From positions 1-64,000 of the forward strand of contig NZ_FZOC01000009.1 in assembly GCF_900188225.1 (NCBI RefSeq): a stretch of 64,000 nucleotides of DNA. Direction: 5' to 3'. Made by a program: the position numbers and the translations under genes. Under the pieces are notes generated by a model. The model worked only from the letters and a program-made list of their open reading frames with translations. It was not told the DNA's origin and searched no databases. Source of the DNA: Humidesulfovibrio mexicanus. GTDB taxonomy: Bacteria > Desulfobacterota > Desulfovibrionia > Desulfovibrionales > Desulfovibrionaceae. Below are positions 24,086 through 31,973 of this stretch, one piece after another. The first letter of the stretch is position 1. Each line of letters begins with the position of its first letter.

Positions 24086-25327
24086 CTAGCAGCCGTGCCT
24101 GCGGATCACCGGCGGCGGCGTGTAGGTGGGCGTGGCCGGAGTGACCACCGGGTGCGTGGTGCTGGTGGGCAGCACGCCCTGGGCCGCGCTGGCGGCCTCG
24201 ATGCGCTGGCCCACCACATCGCCCGAGGACTGCTGGCCGATTGTGATGGTCACGCCCACGGGAACATGGTCCCTGGCCAGGCGCGCCAGCATGAAACTGG
24301 AGTCGAGCTTCGCCGCGCGGGCGAAATGCTCCTGGGCCGCAAGCCAGTCCTGCTTGTCCAGCGCGTCGAGCCCTTGGCCGTAGGCCACGGTGGCCTCGAA
24401 GCTCCGCGTGTGGTAGCTGCGCAACAGCGTCCGTCCCTGCTCCGGGTCGAGCTGGATTTTGTTCACCTCGACGATGCGCGCAAGAACCTGCTTTTGCAGC
24501 TCGAAAAACTTTTCCTTGGCCTCGCTCAGCCCGAAGGAGCCGACCACATCGCCCTGCCTGGTGGAGGCCACGCTGCTGGCCAAGCCCAGCTTGCCCGAAG
24601 CATCGTTCATGCTGCCAACCACCAGCCGTTCCGCGCCGAGCATCCGGCCCGCCCTGGGGGCAGTGGCCGGATCCACAGCGCCTGTTGCGCCGAGGGCCAG
24701 CTCGTCCAGCAGGGCCTGCATCCGCGCGCGCTCCACCACGCTTATGCCCTTGATCTGCGCCAGGTCCGAGATGGTCATGGCGGTGAGCGCCTTCTGCAGG
24801 GGCACCAGTTCCTGCCCGCTGCCCGCTATGGCGAAGTTGAACACGGCGTAGGAGTTGTCCTTGGCGGCCGCAAGGGACCGCTGGCCCTCCGCGGCCAGGG
24901 CCTTGCGGGCCAGCTTCTTGCTCTGCTCTATTTCCACCAGGGTGATGAGGCGGCCCACCTCCTGCGCCACCAGCGGCTTGCCGGGGTCGTTGAAGGCGCG
25001 CCAGGCCGCAAGCGCCTTGTCCTGCTGGTCAAGCTTCACGTAAGCCCAGCCCAGGTACACGTGGCACATGCTGGCCTTGGGCTCCTGGGCCAGGGCGCGC
25101 TCCAGCTCGGGGATGGCGCGCGCGGCGTCGCCGCTTTTGAGGTAGGCGTAGCCCAGCAGCTCGCGTGCCTGCCAGTTGGCGGGATCCGCGGCCGCCTGGG
25201 CCTGGAAGTCGGCGATGGCCTCGGCGTAGTTTCCGGCGCGCAGGGCGCTGGTGCCCTTCATGGCGGCGTTGCACCCGGCCAACACGGCCGCGCAACACAA
25301 CAGCGATACGGCGAAACGGGTCTTCAT
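24086..25327 (-). CDS. TPR and CsgG-domain lipoprotein
   Basis: A 413-residue lipoprotein with lipobox VLAGC at residues 15-19. Residues about 25-130 hold TPR-like repeats (AGNYAEAIADFQAQAAADP; SGDAARAIPELERALAQEP). Residues about 155-300 resemble the CsgG/FlgO domain: VFNFAIAGSG, IKGISVVERARMQALLDELA, and AGRMLGAERLVVGSMND. CsgG forms the outer-membrane pore for curli subunits, but TPR-fused relatives are little studied. A further TPR follows (QDWLAAQEHFARAAKLDSS). GGGAGG precedes the start. It is last in a minus-strand group with the repeat protein and the HfaB-like lipoprotein. Confidence 0.82.
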   Translation of the reverse strand: MKTRFAVSLLCCAAVLAGCNAAMKGTSALRAGNYAEAIADFQAQAAADPANWQARELLGYAYLKSGDAARAIPELERALAQEPKASMCHVYLGWAYVKLDQQDKALAAWRAFNDPGKPLVAQEVGRLITLVEIEQSKKLARKALAAEGQRSLAAAKDNSYAVFNFAIAGSGQELVPLQKALTAMTISDLAQIKGISVVERARMQALLDELALGATGAVDPATAPRAGRMLGAERLVVGSMNDASGKLGLASSVASTRQGDVVGSFGLSEAKEKFFELQKQVLARIVEVNKIQLDPEQGRTLLRSYHTRSFEATVAYGQGLDALDKQDWLAAQEHFARAAKLDSSFMLARLARDHVPVGVTITIGQQSSGDVVGQRIEAASAAQGVLPTSTTHPVVTPATPTYTPPPVIRRHGC

Positions 25328-25442: not shown

Positions 25443-25736
25443 CTACTTGCCGCCGACCTTGACGCTGCCGACGTTGGTCTCGCTCTTGACGTTGTGGCCG
25501 TAGCCCACGTTGGTGACGCTGCCGGCCTTGCCCTTGATGGTGATGTCGCCGGTCTTGGCGCCGTCCTTCACATCAACGGAATGCACGTTGGTCTTGGCCT
25601 CCACGTTCTGGCCGGAGGCCACGTTGGTCACGTTGCCCACCTTGCTGTCCACGGTGATGTCGCCGGTCTTGGCGGCGGCGAAAGCCAGCGCGGTGCTGGC
25701 CAGCACGATGATCATGCTCAGTGCGAACTTCTTCAT
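25443..25736 (-). CDS. Small exported two-repeat protein (candidate fibre subunit)
   Basis: A 97-residue protein: signal peptide at 1-20 (LASTALAFA), then two repeats of about 37 residues. Repeat 1 starts KTGDITVDSKVGNVTNV and repeat 2 KTGDITIKGKAGSVTNV; both continue with G-x-N-V and end in TNVxSV. There is no cysteine or tryptophan. Alternating Val/Ile/Thr with Gly/Asn turns suggests stacked beta strands, like the Asn/Gln ladders of curlins, though no curlin motif is exact. It shares its repeat with the protein at 28109-28456. AGGAGGAG precedes the start, so it should be well translated. It sits between two CsgG/HfaB-type lipoprotein genes. Confidence 0.8.
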   Translation of the reverse strand: MKKFALSMIIVLASTALAFAAAKTGDITVDSKVGNVTNVASGQNVEAKTNVHSVDVKDGAKTGDITIKGKAGSVTNVGYGHNVKSETNVGSVKVGGK

Positions 25737-25823
25737 GGTCTCCTCCTGAATTTGCGGGTTCGATGGCCTTCTCTTCCGTATGCGCAAGGGGGAGGGGGTT
25801 CCCCCGCGGGGGGCGTTCGCCGC

Positions 25824-27473
25824 TTACTTGGCCTTGGTGGTTATCAGCACGCTCTGCTCCACCACCTCGGCGGAGGCGCCGGGGGCCTGCTGGGGCTTCA
25901 TGGGCGGAGCGGCCTCCCTGGCCTCCGTGGGCACGGGCGGGGCCGCTGGCTTGGCCTCGCTGATCTTGATGCCTCGGCTCAAGCCCTTGAGGGCCTGCGC
26001 GCCGCCCTCGACGCTGAGCATCCCGGTTTCGCCCAGGGAGCGGGTCTTGACCGCTGGCAGGCGCGACTCGCTGGCGTACAGGACGATGCGCTCCGCGCCG
26101 TAGGGCGGGGCCACGTCCAGGGAGAAGCCGTCGGAGTCCTCGGGCACGGTGTAGCTGCGCCCGCCCTTGAAGAAGTCCAGGCTGCGGTGCCCGTTGGGCA
26201 GAAGCTGCACGGTCTGGCCGTCTGCGGTGACGTAGACGATCTTGCCGTAGAAATCCTTGTTGCCGGAAAGGGTGATGCGGATCTTTTCGCCCTGCTTGTA
26301 CACGGCCTTGTCGGTCTTGATCTGCACCGAGAGGGGCACGCCGGGCTGGGTGGACTGGGCCGGGGCGCGGCTGACCAGGGCCGGTCCGGCCGTAGCCTGG
26401 GCGGCGACGGCCCCGCTTCCGGCCACGCGGCTCTTCTCGCCCAGCACGGGGGCGTTCAGGAACAGATTCTCATAAAAATCCTCGTCCAGGCTGGCGGCCG
26501 GGAAACCGTAGGCCGCGCTCACGGCCTGGATGGCCGCGCCGGTCTCCGCATCGAGGGTTCCGGTGCTGCGCAGGCTGCGGTAGCCGTACACGTACAGCAG
26601 GTTCTGGATCATGCGCACGCGGCCCTGCTGGTCGGCCAGGGCGAACTGTTCGCGGACGTTCTCCATCACCACGGGGTCGGGCTTGGCGCCCTGGTCCACA
26701 CACTTCCAATAGGGCAGGTTCAGGTACTTGCCCAAGGTCTCCAGCACGGAGAGGTCCACCAGCACGCGCACGGCGGCGTGGCGGCCCTGGATCTTCTTGA
26801 CGCTGCTCTTGTAGCCGAAGGTGGCCCCGAAGATGGAGAAGCCGATGTCCAGGTCGCTGGCGGCCTTGAACACGCGCATGGTGTTCACGGCCTGCACGCG
26901 CGGCACCATGACCATGGTCTCAACGTCCGTGACGTTCAGGTCGATGGTGATGCTGGACACGGAATCGCGGTCCTGCTTGCCGAAATCCACGCCCGGCGAG
27001 TTCTTTCCCGCGCCGAACTGGCCGCCGAAATCCAGCCCGGAGCTGCCGGACTCCAGCGCCCGGTCGAACTCGGTGATGCCGCCGTTCAGCACCACGTCGG
27101 GCTTCACCTTGCCCTCCAGCGTGGTCATGTTCAGCGCGGCCTGGTTCTTGATGTAGATGGGGTCGTAGGGGATGAACACGATGCTGCCGCCGATGCTGTT
27201 GATGGCGCTCATGATCATCTTGGTGATGTCGAAGGGGATTTCCGCGCCGCTGGCCTGGGAGGAGCCGGTCTCGTCCTGCACCTGGGTGGTCTGCACGCGC
27301 AGGGTGCCCACGCGGAACTCGCGCGTCAGGCGGCCGAAGCGCTTGAGCGCACCGGTGTAGGTGGTCTCCTGGGCCTTGGGCGGCTCCACCGGGAGGGTGG
27401 GCGAGGGCTGTTTGCACGAAACCAGGAGCAATGCCATGGCCAAAATGGCCGCGATGCTGGCGCGGGTGTTCAT
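25824..27473 (-). CDS. HfaB/CsgG-like lipoprotein with DUF4384-like domain
   Basis: A 549-residue lipoprotein with lipobox LLVSC. Residues about 30-255 resemble the CsgG/HfaB family: FDITKMIMSAINSIGGSIVF, PDVVLNGGITEFDRALES and VRVLVDLSVLETLGKYLNLP. HfaB anchors the Caulobacter holdfast. Residues about 270-335 look like a peptidoglycan-binding helix bundle (RVRMIQNLLYVYGYRSLRST). Residues about 375-475 fit a DUF4384-like domain (KTDKAVYKQGEKIRITLSGN), which occurs with CsgG and caspase-like proteins. A Pro/Ala tail follows. AAGGAG precedes the start. It is upstream of the two-repeat protein and the TPR-CsgG gene. Confidence 0.8.
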   Translation of the reverse strand: MNTRASIAAILAMALLLVSCKQPSPTLPVEPPKAQETTYTGALKRFGRLTREFRVGTLRVQTTQVQDETGSSQASGAEIPFDITKMIMSAINSIGGSIVFIPYDPIYIKNQAALNMTTLEGKVKPDVVLNGGITEFDRALESGSSGLDFGGQFGAGKNSPGVDFGKQDRDSVSSITIDLNVTDVETMVMVPRVQAVNTMRVFKAASDLDIGFSIFGATFGYKSSVKKIQGRHAAVRVLVDLSVLETLGKYLNLPYWKCVDQGAKPDPVVMENVREQFALADQQGRVRMIQNLLYVYGYRSLRSTGTLDAETGAAIQAVSAAYGFPAASLDEDFYENLFLNAPVLGEKSRVAGSGAVAAQATAGPALVSRAPAQSTQPGVPLSVQIKTDKAVYKQGEKIRITLSGNKDFYGKIVYVTADGQTVQLLPNGHRSLDFFKGGRSYTVPEDSDGFSLDVAPPYGAERIVLYASESRLPAVKTRSLGETGMLSVEGGAQALKGLSRGIKISEAKPAAPPVPTEAREAAPPMKPQQAPGASAEVVEQSVLITTKAK

Positions 27474-27514
27474 GGAGCGTCTCCTTGGGCTTGGCCCGCC
27501 GGGCCTGCTCCCGG

Positions 27515-27832
27515 CTACTTTCCCTTGATGATGTTCTTGTCGCCCTTGCCTTCGTCGATGATGACGATGTCGCCGTAGACGTTGCCGCCCACGACCGCGC
27601 TGTTGACGTTGGTGTCGCCGGATCCGGCCTCGATGGCGCCGCCCTGCTGGCGCTTGGCCAGAGACTTGGCCTTGACCTTCTCGTACTTGACGTTGGTGCC
27701 CTTCTTGAGGGTGTTGTCGAACTCGAAGCCGTCGTCGTTGTCGATCTTGTCGTCCATGTCCTTGGCGAGGGCCGGGCCTCCGGCGGCAAGCGCCAGGCTC
27801 ATGCCCAGGATGACCGCTGCAAGACGCTTCAT
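27515..27832 (-). CDS. Small exported protein, acidic N-half, Gly/Asn-rich C-half
   Basis: A 105-residue protein of unknown family. The signal peptide is at 1-23 (LALAAGGPALA), then an acidic stretch (KDMDDKIDNDDGFEFDN), a basic middle, and a C-terminal part of alternating hydrophobic residues and Gly/Asn (GDTNVNSAVVGGNVYGDIVI) ending KGDKNIIKGK. That last part resembles the repeat proteins of this cluster in style, but I see no clear full repeat. GGGGGAGG precedes the start. It is the first gene of the minus-strand group. Confidence 0.7.
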   Translation of the reverse strand: MKRLAAVILGMSLALAAGGPALAKDMDDKIDNDDGFEFDNTLKKGTNVKYEKVKAKSLAKRQQGGAIEAGSGDTNVNSAVVGGNVYGDIVIIDEGKGDKNIIKGK

Positions 27833-27907
27833 GGCCGCCTCCCCCGGACGCCGCACCCGCCGACGCTGCCTTGCGCCGGGGCTGGACGCCCGTCCGTTAC
27901 GTGTATC

Positions 27908-27962
27908 GCTGGAAGCTATTCCAGCATACCATGTACGTATAATGACGCAACACTGTTGTCAA
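27908..27962 (-). promoter_or_regulatory. Predicted promoter and operator of the CsgG-like cluster
   Basis: On the minus strand TTGACA (27957-27962) is followed after 15 bases by TATACG (27936-27941). Downstream, near the expected transcript start, lies a 7-bp dyad GCTGGAA-GCTA-TTCCAGC (27908-27925). A second dyad CAACACTGTTG overlaps the -35. On the plus strand a TATAAT occurs at 27938-27943, but without a good -35. The 276-base gap (27833-28108) separates the two divergent arms of the cluster and is clearly richer in A/T than the genes. Confidence 0.45.
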
Positions 27963-28079
27963 GGCGAGCACACGAAACAACACGCAGGAAGAAGCTGGCC
28001 GTGGGGCATTGCAACGCTTTCCGGCGCGTGCTAGCATTTGTCATTACCTTGTGCCCCCCAGCCGTCCGTGCAGGAGACC

Positions 28080-28096
28080 CTCAAACAACGTTTGAG
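28080..28096 (+). promoter_or_regulatory. Stem-loop just before a ribosome-binding site
   Basis: CTCAAAC-AAC-GTTTGAG is a 7-bp stem with a 3-base loop, immediately before the AGGAGGA ribosome site of the repeat-protein gene at 28109. It could stabilise the transcript or modulate translation. Confidence 0.45.
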
Positions 28097-28108
28097 AGGA
28101 GGAACGCC

Positions 28109-28456
28109 ATGAACGCCTTGCCCGTCCACAAGCCGGATGCTGCAGGGAACTGGACACAGTTTCACATGCTTTTCCTTTGCCTGGCCGCAGCTCTTGCCCT
28201 CCCGGCGGCGGGGCTGGCCGCCCAGGTGCACGAATCCGACCTCGCGGTCTCCAGCAAGGTGGGCAAGGTGTCCACCCAGGCCGAGGGCCGGAACGCCGAA
28301 GCGCGCTCCGTGGTCCACTCCGTGACCATCCACCCCGATGCCCGCACCGGCGACGTGCGGGTGAGCGGAGCCGTGGACAAGGTCCATTCCCAGTCCGTGG
28401 GCCAGAACACCAGCGCCGACAGCGCCGTGGGCGGGGTGAACGTGGGCGGCAAGTAA
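28109..28456 (+). CDS. Small exported two-repeat protein, second copy
   Basis: A 115-residue protein whose N-terminus carries a somewhat long signal peptide (MLFLCLAAALALPAAGLA, after about 23 residues). The mature part holds two repeats of about 37 residues in register with the protein at 25443-25736: HESDLAVSSKVGKVSTQ and RTGDVRVSGAVDKVHSQ, each followed by G-x-N and a final V-G/H-x-V; both proteins end in VGGK. The repeat is more diverged here (Ser, Gln and Ala replace Thr and Asn). AGGAGGA precedes the ATG. An in-frame ATG inside the leader (at the MLFLC position) would give a standard-length signal peptide, so the start is not certain. Confidence 0.75.
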   Translation: MNALPVHKPDAAGNWTQFHMLFLCLAAALALPAAGLAAQVHESDLAVSSKVGKVSTQAEGRNAEARSVVHSVTIHPDARTGDVRVSGAVDKVHSQSVGQNTSADSAVGGVNVGGK

Positions 28457-28460
28457 AGCC

Positions 28461-28760
28461 CTACCGTCCCTTGACCGTGGCCACGGCCTCGCCGGGCGCG
28501 CGTCCCGGCGCCACGCGGCCCTGGTAGATGATCTGGGAGTCCGGCCCCTCGGCGGCGTCCTTGCGGCCGCGTTCGCGCCAAAGCCACACGTGGCCGTCCT
28601 TGGTGTCCACGATGAGCACCTTGGGCGGAAACAGATTGTTGTCGCCGCTCTGCACCACCACGGGCTTGTAGCGGATGATCTCCTCCGCCAGGGCGGTGGC
28701 GCGGCACAGCGGCAGGGAGAGGATGACCAGAAGAAACGGAAGGGCGATGCGCCTGGGCAT
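28461..28760 (-). CDS. Small exported protein of unknown function
   Basis: A 99-residue protein with a signal peptide (IALPFLLVILSLPLCRATALA) and a mature part containing EIIRYKPVVVQSGDNNLFPP, KVLIVDTKDGHVWLWRE and a basic tail. I do not recognise the family; the KDGHVWLW element recurs in small periplasmic proteins. GAGGAGG precedes the start. It converges with the two-repeat gene, stops only 4 bases away. Confidence 0.65.
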   Translation of the reverse strand: MPRRIALPFLLVILSLPLCRATALAEEIIRYKPVVVQSGDNNLFPPKVLIVDTKDGHVWLWRERGRKDAAEGPDSQIIYQGRVAPGRAPGEAVATVKGR

Positions 28761-28933: not shown

Positions 28934-29350
28934 ATGCAGGCGCATCCGCACATGCCGTTGGCCGCTTCCGCAGCGGCCCTGCTTGCCCTGGCTCTGCTCT
29001 GCCTGCCTGCGGCCGCTCCGGGCGCCGGCCGCATGGACACGCCCTCGGAGGAGGAACTCATCGCGCGCGGCTTCCGCTTCGTCACGGAGAAGCCCGCCGA
29101 CAAATTCCACGAGATCCCCGGCGACGACACCGTCATCCGCGTGTACAAGAAGGGCCAGGAGACCGTGGGGCTCTATATCCTGCGCAACGGGCGCATCTAC
29201 GGCTACGCGGTGAAGGTGGGCGGGCAGCCCATGGCCGCCTACATCGACGAGTACAACTCCGGCTATTGCGCAAAAGACGTGAGCGCGGGCGAAAACTTCA
29301 TGATCGATCTGCGCGCCTATGGCATGGACCGGGCCAGCCGCCGCAAATAG
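28934..29350 (+). CDS. Exported protein of unknown function upstream of CsgG-like gene
   Basis: A 138-residue protein. The signal peptide is residues 1-30 (ALLALALLCLPAAAPGAG). The mature region is a small globular domain (EELIARGFRFVTEKPADKFH; VGLYILRNGRIYGYAVKVGG; YIDEYNSGYCAKD) with one cysteine. I recognise no family. GAGGAGG lies before the ATG. It is 24 bases before the CsgG-like gene and so probably co-transcribed with it. Confidence 0.7.
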   Translation: MQAHPHMPLAASAAALLALALLCLPAAAPGAGRMDTPSEEELIARGFRFVTEKPADKFHEIPGDDTVIRVYKKGQETVGLYILRNGRIYGYAVKVGGQPMAAYIDEYNSGYCAKDVSAGENFMIDLRAYGMDRASRRK

Positions 29351-29374: not shown

Positions 29375-30049
29375 ATGCGCATCCGACTCCGCGCCCAGGC
29401 CATGGCCCTGGCTCTTGTCCTGGCCCTGTGCGGCCTGGCCCGCGCCCAGGCCCCCACCACCCTGGCCGTGCTGCCCTTCGAGAACAACGCCGTCACCGAT
29501 GCGAAGATGTACGAGCCCCTCGCCCAGGGGCTGGCCGCCATGCTCATCACGGACCTCAAGATGGCCGGAACGAGCCTCAAGGTCATCGAGCGGGCGCAGA
29601 TCGCCGCCATCCTGAAGGAGGTGGCCTTGAGCCAGAGCGGCATGGTGGACGCGGCCACGGCGGTGCAGGCCGGGCGGCTCCTGGGCGCGCAGAGCATCGC
29701 CTTCGGCGCGTTCATGGTCCTGGGCGACGACGTGCGCATGGACGCCCGCATCATCAACGTGGAGACCAGCGAGTGCATCATGGCCGCCTCCATCACCGGC
29801 GGCAAGAAGGACTTCATGAAGCTGGAGCGCCAGTTGGCGGAGAAGATCGCCGCCGCCCTCAAGGTGAGCCTGTCGCAGATTCCGCCCGCGGCCAGCGGCA
29901 TGGACGCGGCGCTTCTGTACTCCCGCGGGCTGGAGGCCCTGGACAAGGGCGACCGCGCCGGGGCCGAGAAGCTCTTCGCCGAGACCGTGGCCGCCGACCC
30001 GGCCTACAAGCGGCAGGTGGAGGGCATCATGGCCGCGTTGAACCAGTAG
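29375..30049 (+). CDS. CsgG-domain exported protein
   Basis: A 224-residue protein with a signal peptide (ALALVLALCGLARAQA) lacking a proper lipobox, so it should be periplasmic or outer-membrane associated rather than lipidated as CsgG is. The CsgG domain is clear: TLAVLPFENNAVTD, GTSLKVIERAQIAAILKEVA, VQAGRLLGAQSIAFGAFMV and ARIINVETSECIMAASITGG. A single TPR-like stretch (GDRAGAEKLFAETVAADP) ends it. AGGAGG precedes the start, and a terminator follows. Confidence 0.85.
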   Translation: MRIRLRAQAMALALVLALCGLARAQAPTTLAVLPFENNAVTDAKMYEPLAQGLAAMLITDLKMAGTSLKVIERAQIAAILKEVALSQSGMVDAATAVQAGRLLGAQSIAFGAFMVLGDDVRMDARIINVETSECIMAASITGGKKDFMKLERQLAEKIAAALKVSLSQIPPAASGMDAALLYSRGLEALDKGDRAGAEKLFAETVAADPAYKRQVEGIMAALNQ

Positions 30050-30127: not shown

Positions 30128-31852
30128 CTACCGGATGCGCACGTCCACCTGCCCGGCCGCAAAATCCTGCACCACGATGCGCCGCTTGCCGGAAAGGGGC
30201 GTGTTGTCCACGGCCACGGCCAGGTCCTCGCCCGTGCCGCCGTAGCGCACGTCCAGCACCAGCAGGCCGCTCTGCTTGTTCCAGCGGTCCGTGGCCACCT
30301 CGTTCACGCTGGAGGTCTTTTGCAGGGCGGACAAAAGCGACGCGTAGGCCGACATGTCGCCCACGCCGGTGGCGAAGAGGCGTATCTGCCCGCCCTCGGC
30401 CGCGTCCTTCATGGCCAGGCTGGTCAACGTGGGGGCCACGTAGCCGTCTATGGTCGCGCGGGAGGCCTGGGCCAGGGCCTTCTGCGCGCCGTTGAGCGCG
30501 CTTACGTGCGCTGCGGCCGCGCTCTGCACCGTGGAGCCCAGCACCTGCCCATTCTGGGCGCTGACGATCTTGAGCTGGATGTTGGTTTGAATGGAGCGCA
30601 GGTTGGTTCCAGGCATAACCTCGCCCGCATCCTGTATGGCGGCCTTTCCCACCAGCACGTACCGCGCGCCGAACATGGCCCCGAGCTGCTTGGCCGCGTC
30701 GGCGTCGCCGGAAAGGGCCAGCCGCACCTGCCCCTTCTGGTTGGCGGCCTCAAGCTGGGCCTTGTCGATGAGCGGGTAGCCCAGGGCGGAGAGCCGGGCC
30801 AAAAGCTCGTTCTCGGCCATGCTCATGCCCTTTACCGGACAGTTCACGCAGTCCTCCTGCACCAGCAGCATGAGCTTGGGCGGCTTGGCTTGTCGCTGGG
30901 CCGCGGGCCGGGCAGGGGCAGGGGCAGGGCTTACCGCCGGGTCCGGGGCGGGCCTGGAAGCCGCCGCCTGGGCCTGCTGCTGGCCGCGCTCTATCTGCCG
31001 CTTGAGCTCCGCGATCTCCGCGCGCTCCTTCTCTATCCTGGCCCATTCCTCGGCCGCGGCCTTGTCCATGGCTCCGCCCGCGGTCTCGCCCCCGCCCCTG
31101 AAAAAGAAATCACCGGTGAGGGACGAGGACTGCCAGGGCACCTGCCGCTTGCTGGTCTCGCGCATGACGGACACGCGCACCTTCTTGAGCACCTTGTCCA
31201 CCTCCAGATTCGGGGTGGGCATGTACTCCAGCATGTACTTGGTGAACACGCCGTTCCTGCCCTCTCCGTCGGCGGCGGTGTCGCCCGGGGCGGTGGCGTA
31301 GGCGATGAAGGTGCCCGTGGGCGCGTCCATGCGCGCAAGCCCCTTGGAGGACGAGCGGTAGCTGCGGGCAAAGGGGTTGTCGCGGCAGGCGTCCAAAATG
31401 ACGATATTGAGCGGGTTGCCCGCGTTGTGCATGGCGTCCAGCACGCGCCCGGCATCCACGGACTCGTACTTGATGTCGCTTTCCTGGCTGATCTTGGCCC
31501 CGATGGGGATGAGGTAGTTGACGCCGCCCACCTGCATTCCGTGCCCGGCGAAGAAGAAGAGTCCCATGGATTCCTTGTTCAGCTTGCCCTGGAACTCGCG
31601 GATGGCGTCCTCCATCTGCTTCTGGTTGGCGTTCAGCCGCGAGATGACCTCGAAGCCCAGATTCTTGAGCATGGAGCCCATGTCCGTGGCGTCGTTGACC
31701 GGATTCTTCAGCGGCGAGGACTCGTAGGCGGAGTTTCCGATGACCAGCGCCAGGCGCTTCTGGGTGTCGGCCAGGGCCGGGGCGGCGGCCAGCAGGGCCA
31801 GGCCGGTCAGGACACCAGCCAGGACGAGGGCCAAAGGTGGGCGGATGCGCAT
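30128..31852 (-). CDS. Exported metacaspase-like (C14) protein with CsgG/FlgO-like C-terminus
   Basis: A 574-residue protein with a signal peptide (residues 1-28). The caspase-like domain (about 32-270) begins KRLALVIGNSAY, with the catalytic histidine H104 in FFFAGHGMQ and cysteine C156 in VILDACRDNP. An acidic substrate pocket for basic residues would make it metacaspase- rather than caspase-like. A Lys/Glu/Gln coiled-coil and Pro/Ala linker follow, then a second domain (about 350-500) with ALGYPLIDKAQLEAANQ and LGAMFGARYVLVGKAAI resembling CsgG/FlgO proteins. AAGGAGG precedes the start. It is in the same neighbourhood as the CsgG-like genes. Confidence 0.85.
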   Translation of the reverse strand: MRIRPPLALVLAGVLTGLALLAAAPALADTQKRLALVIGNSAYESSPLKNPVNDATDMGSMLKNLGFEVISRLNANQKQMEDAIREFQGKLNKESMGLFFFAGHGMQVGGVNYLIPIGAKISQESDIKYESVDAGRVLDAMHNAGNPLNIVILDACRDNPFARSYRSSSKGLARMDAPTGTFIAYATAPGDTAADGEGRNGVFTKYMLEYMPTPNLEVDKVLKKVRVSVMRETSKRQVPWQSSSLTGDFFFRGGGETAGGAMDKAAAEEWARIEKERAEIAELKRQIERGQQQAQAAASRPAPDPAVSPAPAPARPAAQRQAKPPKLMLLVQEDCVNCPVKGMSMAENELLARLSALGYPLIDKAQLEAANQKGQVRLALSGDADAAKQLGAMFGARYVLVGKAAIQDAGEVMPGTNLRSIQTNIQLKIVSAQNGQVLGSTVQSAAAAHVSALNGAQKALAQASRATIDGYVAPTLTSLAMKDAAEGGQIRLFATGVGDMSAYASLLSALQKTSSVNEVATDRWNKQSGLLVLDVRYGGTGEDLAVAVDNTPLSGKRRIVVQDFAAGQVDVRIR

Positions 31853-31973
31853 GGGTTCCTCCTTGGCGGACTCAAGGGGGGGTGGATATGTATGCATCTA
31901 CCCAATGACGCGGAAAATGGCAACGCGCCCCAAGGGGCCGGGCGGGGCAACAGGGCGCGAGCGCACCCGGCGG

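Follow-up and report, generated by a model that had tools for sequence, protein, structure and literature searches.

We report that a window of 64,000 nucleotides from Humidesulfovibrio mexicanus (the whole stretch of DNA that was analysed, positions 1 to 64,000 of contig NZ_FZOC01000009.1, in a genome of 3.52 Mb) encodes two small secreted repeat proteins, P0001 and P0002, beside P0004, a lipoprotein which is, on profile comparison, a distant relative and homologue of the curli channel CsgG. We consider it rather probable that P0001 and P0002 belong, as subunits, to an outer-membrane export module of the CsgG/HfaB type, one that has a class of surface subunits of its own, built from stacked repeats and possibly amyloid. 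The best reading of this module, by analogy, is that it would work like the curli, Fap and HfaABD systems without belonging to any of them. The genes that matter most here are (lengths in amino acids, aa):
25443..25736, minus strand: P0001, type A repeat subunit (97 aa), with a signal peptide at about residues 1-20 and then two 38-residue repeats.
28109..28456, plus strand: P0002, type B repeat subunit (115 aa), with a signal peptide followed by two repeats of 38 residues; its gene diverges from the P0003-P0004-P0001 run.
25824..27473, minus strand: P0004, exporter candidate (549 aa), a lipoprotein with a full-length CsgG/HfaB-like domain, a peptidoglycan (PG)-binding-like segment and DUF4384.
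27515..27832, minus strand: P0003, companion small secreted protein (105 aa), with an acidic DMDDxI..DD start and a C-terminal GxxNxNSVVxGxxxxGDIxIIDExKG motif.

The open reading frames (ORFs) of P0001 and P0002 are preceded by good Shine-Dalgarno sequences and encode signal peptides of the Sec type, as judged from the sequence, and the two proteins are identical at 31/72 positions (43%; BLASTP, E=3e-17); on this alignment they are secreted paralogues. The internal register peaks at 38 residues in each protein, with 22/39 positions identical between the first and second repeats of P0001 (score 109, against a shuffle mean of 27) and 13/40 in P0002 (score 57, against 24); not one of 5000 shuffles reached the score of either. 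The ORFs, signal peptides, identity and shuffles thus confirm the original prediction of two secreted double-repeat proteins at these positions, although its repeat length of 37 gives way to 38 as the best register in both. The motifs that it named are present (GD-I/V-x-V, SKVG-x-V, G-x-N, VHSV/VGxV and the final VGGK), except that the first repeat of P0002 begins E-S-D-L and not G-D. A third repeat gene, 93% identical to P0001, is solitary on another contig (G000:C3:233280-233570), with no exporter genes nearby. Purifying selection is seen between P0001 copies (dN 0.05, dS 0.25); dN/dS is about 0.15-0.29 in five of the seven copy comparisons and 0.54-0.63 in the two most divergent.

Repeat alignment and profile searching, the check first proposed for these repeats, gave no credible family match for P0001 or P0002 in Pfam, NCBIfam or PDB. 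Weak Pfam matches of the long repeat proteins described below were dismissed as repeat-summation artefacts, in which no single stretch passes alone. A phmmer match of the L109 repeats to PDB chain 5dra '3beta1' (E 5.8e-5), which we take to be a designed beta-solenoid, was set aside as evidence, since matches of this kind can come from biased composition.

A CsgG-type exporter beside the repeat genes is a context absent from the original prediction. The profile of the P0004 family (15 homologues) aligned by hhalign with CsgG of E. coli K-12 over CsgG residues 4-257 (probability 95.3, E 2e-8), while two unrelated E. coli proteins, used as negative controls, scored 0.2-0.4% probability. The lipobox cysteine, C20, is invariant in 15/15 aligned homologues. 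The best NCBIfam match of P0004 is the holdfast protein HfaB (E 4e-4), with 19.5 bits against a cut-off of 300, which places it outside the HfaB equivalog. The genome has three CsgG-domain matches, all within about 6 kb at this locus.

The pairing of exporter and repeats recurs in other genomes, also of different bacterial families. In more distant Desulfovibrionaceae (the L059 and L060 group) the exporter adjoins an A-type double repeat, and in L062, from another genus, it lies next to a protein of 282 residues in which a 37-residue repeat occurs seven times in tandem, and which the Desulfovibrionaceae repeat-unit profile finds at E=7.5e-9. In a blind test, 395 genomes of the phylum were searched with the exporter alignment alone, ignoring the repeats; eight distant genomes matched, in that part of the protein which corresponds to CsgG. 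Every ORF of the distant loci was scanned for internal repeats; seven of the eight had enough flank, L107 being excluded with a sequence that begins 194 bases upstream of the exporter. All seven intact-flank loci encode a secreted protein whose tandem repeats are 35-39 residues long, at a distance of about three genes or less from the exporter:
L106: five repeats of 36 residues.
L109: seven repeats of 36 residues, plus a second protein with about eight of 36.
L110: two repeats of 36 residues.
L112: two repeats of 36 residues.
L113: two repeats of 35 residues.
L108 and L111: repeat period of 35-39 residues.
As background, only two of the 311 window ORFs of 60-450 aa have a period of 33-40 at z>7, namely P0001 and the genuine TPR protein P0005. 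The order repeat gene, P0003-like gene, exporter is conserved in L059, L106, L108, L109 and L110. A plasmid of Azospirillum lipoferum 4B also carries an exporter homologue, with a 97-aa secreted protein of two 37-residue repeats a few genes upstream (19/39 identical between repeats; 0/1000 shuffles). The double repeat also stands at the C-terminus of larger, unrelated secreted proteins at L059:12407-13624 (401 aa) and L060:9734-11275 (513 aa), where it resembles a surface-display or docking tail.

Within Humidesulfovibrio, the exporter is found in four of 15 genomes (G000, G003, G009 and G013) and intact double repeats are found in exactly the same four; six genomes have single decayed repeat copies or fragments and no exporter, and five have neither. 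This pattern of joint loss is suggestive, and is not a statistic, because these are related genomes, some of them incomplete. The decayed type A genes, in G001, G002, G005, G007, G011 and G012 (L014, L010, L009, L013, L011 and L012), have lost the first repeat and partly kept the second, with the signal peptide mostly intact.

These results bear on the idea that the repeats are convergent or of low complexity, share no common function and lie near an exporter only incidentally. Repeats rich in glycine, valine and asparagine do arise easily, and the distant repeat families are weakly similar in sequence; but the 7/7 exporter loci, joined by an Azospirillum locus whose repeat protein has nearly the same period, the purifying selection on repeat copies and the decay of repeats where the exporter is missing had already put this idea out of favour, and we regard it as very improbable indeed.

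The history of the pair can be partly read from a gene tree of the type A genes, in which the exporter-linked copies of G003, G009 and G013 group together (support 0.97) and P0001 falls with dispersed copies instead. P0001 of the window shares 88-93% identity with dispersed copies of the genus and 71-76% with those exporter-linked copies, and in G009 and G013 a TPR-CsgG gene follows the dispersed copy (L051, L054), as P0005 follows P0001. This placement and the shared TPR-CsgG follower suggest that a P0001-P0005 cassette replaced the original A gene in this genome, likely by relocation or gene conversion. Duplication followed by rearrangement had been proposed from the opposite strands of the two repeat genes; the duplication is clear and a later relocation or conversion likely, but the strands are no sign of rearrangement. 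The type B gene is on the opposite strand in sister loci too (L055 and L056, with the partial loci L065 and L063 matching); the arrangement is conserved in sister genomes, and the layout is a simple divergent gene pair.

AlphaFold modelling of mature P0001, from an alignment of 11 sequences, gave an all-strand model (predicted local distance difference test, pLDDT, 75.5; predicted template modelling score, pTM, 0.50) with three strands per repeat, and the predicted strands (5-11/43-49, 14-19/52-57 and 24-34/62-72) lie exactly 38 residues apart. The model looks as one beta layer per repeat would look. The suggestion of stacked beta strands, as in functional amyloids, thus gains from the three predicted strands in a 38-residue register and, above all though indirectly, from the conserved linkage to a CsgG-family exporter. 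The beta-solenoid itself is not demonstrated and stays a prediction, because the model has no solved match and because solenoid models of repeat proteins are easily over-predicted. Viral models gave no match either.

The lack of a solved match is one of several points that weigh against an export module with stacked-repeat subunits: the P0001 model found no PDB fold above noise, and no solved solenoid or amyloid. P0004 scores 18.8 bits against Pfam CsgG, just below the cut-off of 20.8, and its own AlphaFold model, from four aligned sequences, has a pLDDT of 33 and does not resolve the CsgG membrane hairpins. The distant repeats of L106, L109 and L110 are tied to the window by a unit-profile match to P0001 at E 0.0095, a link too weak to prove that all the repeat families share one origin. 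Co-occurrence in the genus may stem from one clade, with several genomes incomplete; Azospirillum ramasamyi has an exporter homologue with no repeat protein nearby; and the two repeats of the module's subunits are fewer than in most curli subunits.

Curli and the module both encode an outer-membrane lipoprotein of CsgG homology together with small secreted repeat subunits whose repeat number varies, and both have two paralogous subunits and a small secreted companion gene; the repeat number of curli subunits varies widely (PMC10192328, PMC3521004). However, the repeat of the module is 36-38 residues long with three predicted strands, whereas that of curlin is about 22 with the pattern N-x-psi-x-psi-x-Q, and the module exporter bears PG-binding-like and usually DUF4384 or TPR extensions. 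Neither curlin repeats (PF07012) nor CsgE and CsgF (PF10627, PF10614) were found in any of 16 module-bearing genomes, the E. coli controls being positive, and the module repeat profile does not align with CsgA, in agreement with the earlier view that these are not curlin repeats. Because repeat sequence, repeat length and accessory genes all differ, we refuse the module membership of curli. Dueholm et al. reported one canonical curli system in Desulfovibrionales and described CsgG as part of a larger family (PMC3521004).

The holdfast anchor HfaA/HfaB/HfaD likewise has a CsgG-like lipoprotein serving small secreted proteins; HfaA and HfaD depend on HfaB for their outer-membrane location, and the multimers that HfaA forms resist SDS (PMC6707917). 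The repeat proteins differ in having no HfaA or HfaD family match, and P0004 falls far below the HfaB cut-off. This likeness raises an alternative that we take seriously but think unlikely: that the module is an anchor and not a fibre, as in Caulobacter HfaABD, in which P0004 sets the repeat proteins in a short patch on the outer membrane, this patch tethers a different polymer of the surface (a polysaccharide or an envelope layer), and no long amyloid fibres are formed. HfaB as nearest named exporter, the dependence and multimerisation of the Hfa proteins just mentioned, the mere two repeats per subunit and the C-terminal double repeats of the L059 and L060 proteins, which fit an anchoring module, all speak for such an anchor; but near the module no genes for a holdfast were recognised, and the seven- and eight-repeat subunits elsewhere resemble fibre or solenoid material.

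The Fap subunits FapB and FapC share with P0001 and P0002 secretion, imperfect repeats and conserved Gly/Asn positions, with one repeat per cross-beta layer (by cryo-EM for FapC, by prediction for the module). Fap almost always has three repeats and a fapABCDEF operon (PMC12822426), and the module differs in its two repeats (2-8 in relatives) and CsgG-type exporter. The repeat-unit profile found no FapC chain in PDB, and no fapA-F domain, such as those of the FapF barrel or the FapD peptidase, turned up in Pfam scans of nine neighbouring window proteins, although no search was aimed at fap genes. Membership of Fap or of HfaABD is not supported. A two-repeat architecture is also known from the fungal prion domain HET-s(218-289), in which two pseudo-repeats per molecule stack as beta-solenoid layers; it has no sequence relation to the module, and it stood among the weak Foldseek matches of the P0001 model at noise level (E 4.5, TM 0.2).

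The further neighbours are:
24086..25327, minus strand: P0005, TPR and CsgG-fold lipoprotein (413 aa), downstream of P0001 (CsgG Pfam 4.4e-6, TPR_16 1.8e-13).
28461..28760, minus strand: P0006, small conserved secreted protein (99 aa), its position kept in L055, L056, L063 and L065.
28934..29350, plus strand: P0007, small conserved secreted protein (138 aa), its position kept across species.
29375..30049, plus strand: P0008, short CsgG-domain secreted protein (224 aa; CsgG Pfam 3.3e-11, residues 24-112).
30128..31897, minus strand: P0009, secreted caspase-fold (C14) protein (589 aa; Peptidase_C14 4.3e-40), its C-terminal part weakly LpoB-like.
P0003, P0004, P0001 and P0005 run in one direction on the minus strand from 27832 to 24086, with P0002 divergent from P0003, and sister species keep the order caspase, P0008, P0007, P0006, type B, P0003, P0004, type A (L055 and L056; partly L063 and L065). 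No family was found for P0006 or P0007 in Pfam or NCBIfam; a P0007-like gene also adjoins or follows the repeat protein in L060. The P0009-type caspase is next to the module in L055, L056, L063 and L065, its place there being conserved in several genera, and at L059:7594-8823 a caspase with an N-terminal TPR-like part lies directly upstream of the repeat gene.

That the caspase P0009, the TPR-CsgG protein P0005 and the short CsgG protein P0008 flank the pair could be read differently: the CsgG-like, DUF4384, TPR and caspase proteins would form a periplasmic sensor set for envelope stress or signalling, and the repeat proteins would be soluble periplasmic ligands or substrates that are never exported. 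We find this quite improbable, since the core kept across families is repeat protein, P0003 and exporter, the caspase, P0005, P0006 and P0008 not being seen in the core of L106 and L108-L110, and since the alignment of the exporter profile extends over almost the whole of CsgG.

For an export module, we envisage that P0001 and P0002 would cross the inner membrane by Sec, as their signal peptides suggest, and that P0004, from its homology and linkage, would form an outer-membrane channel passing them out unfolded. At the surface each 38-residue repeat is predicted to fold as one three-strand beta layer, and stacking of these layers, both inside a subunit and from one subunit to the next, may build a fibre or surface patch, either amyloid or beta-solenoid in type. 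The two paralogous subunits on divergent genes could be major and minor subunits, and the position of P0003, whose gene accompanies that of the exporter in most of the lineages covered, suggests that it might act as a coupling or nucleating factor, in place of the CsgF or CsgB of curli. Homology of P0003 to CsgF or CsgB was rejected, the P0003 family matching neither, and a match of its C-terminal motif to the repeat (probability 10%, E 0.003) is too weak for any claim.

Distant versions of the module have neighbours of their own. Two more conserved secreted proteins, absent from the window version, lie downstream of the exporters at L106:4821-6000, L107:1595-2803 and L109:6762-8031, one of them with a weak LPP20-like region. 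FHA-like or FHA-annotated proteins lie near the exporter at L108:4311-6251 and L115:8809-13347, and protein phosphatases 2C do so in Azospirillum; these neighbours hint at phosphorylation control in those lineages.

No description of the module was found in the open full-text literature on CsgG with Desulfovibrio or DUF4384, or on CsgG-like amyloids in these bacteria, subscription journals being outside the scope, and it appears to be a curli-like system, not described before, that assembles surface structures of protein. More tentatively, and with some doubt on our part, bacteria may possess, in addition to curli and Fap, another class of functional amyloid, having tandem 36-38-residue three-strand repeats, a CsgG/HfaB-like channel and its own coupling protein (the P0003 family), in many Desulfobacterota families and in Alphaproteobacteria; such a class would go unseen by today's curli and Fap screens, since it has neither the repeat motifs nor the accessory genes of those systems. 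Surveys that look for functional amyloids in genomes take the repeats of curlin or Fap, with the operons that belong to them, as their targets (PMC12822426), and a CsgG-type system with unrelated-looking repeats, if our proposal is true, would escape all of them. It would then add to the variety of surface structures known from bacteria, among the sulfate reducers and their relatives, and would offer a minimal two-layer subunit, of about 75 residues, in which to study how assembly is governed by the number of repeats.

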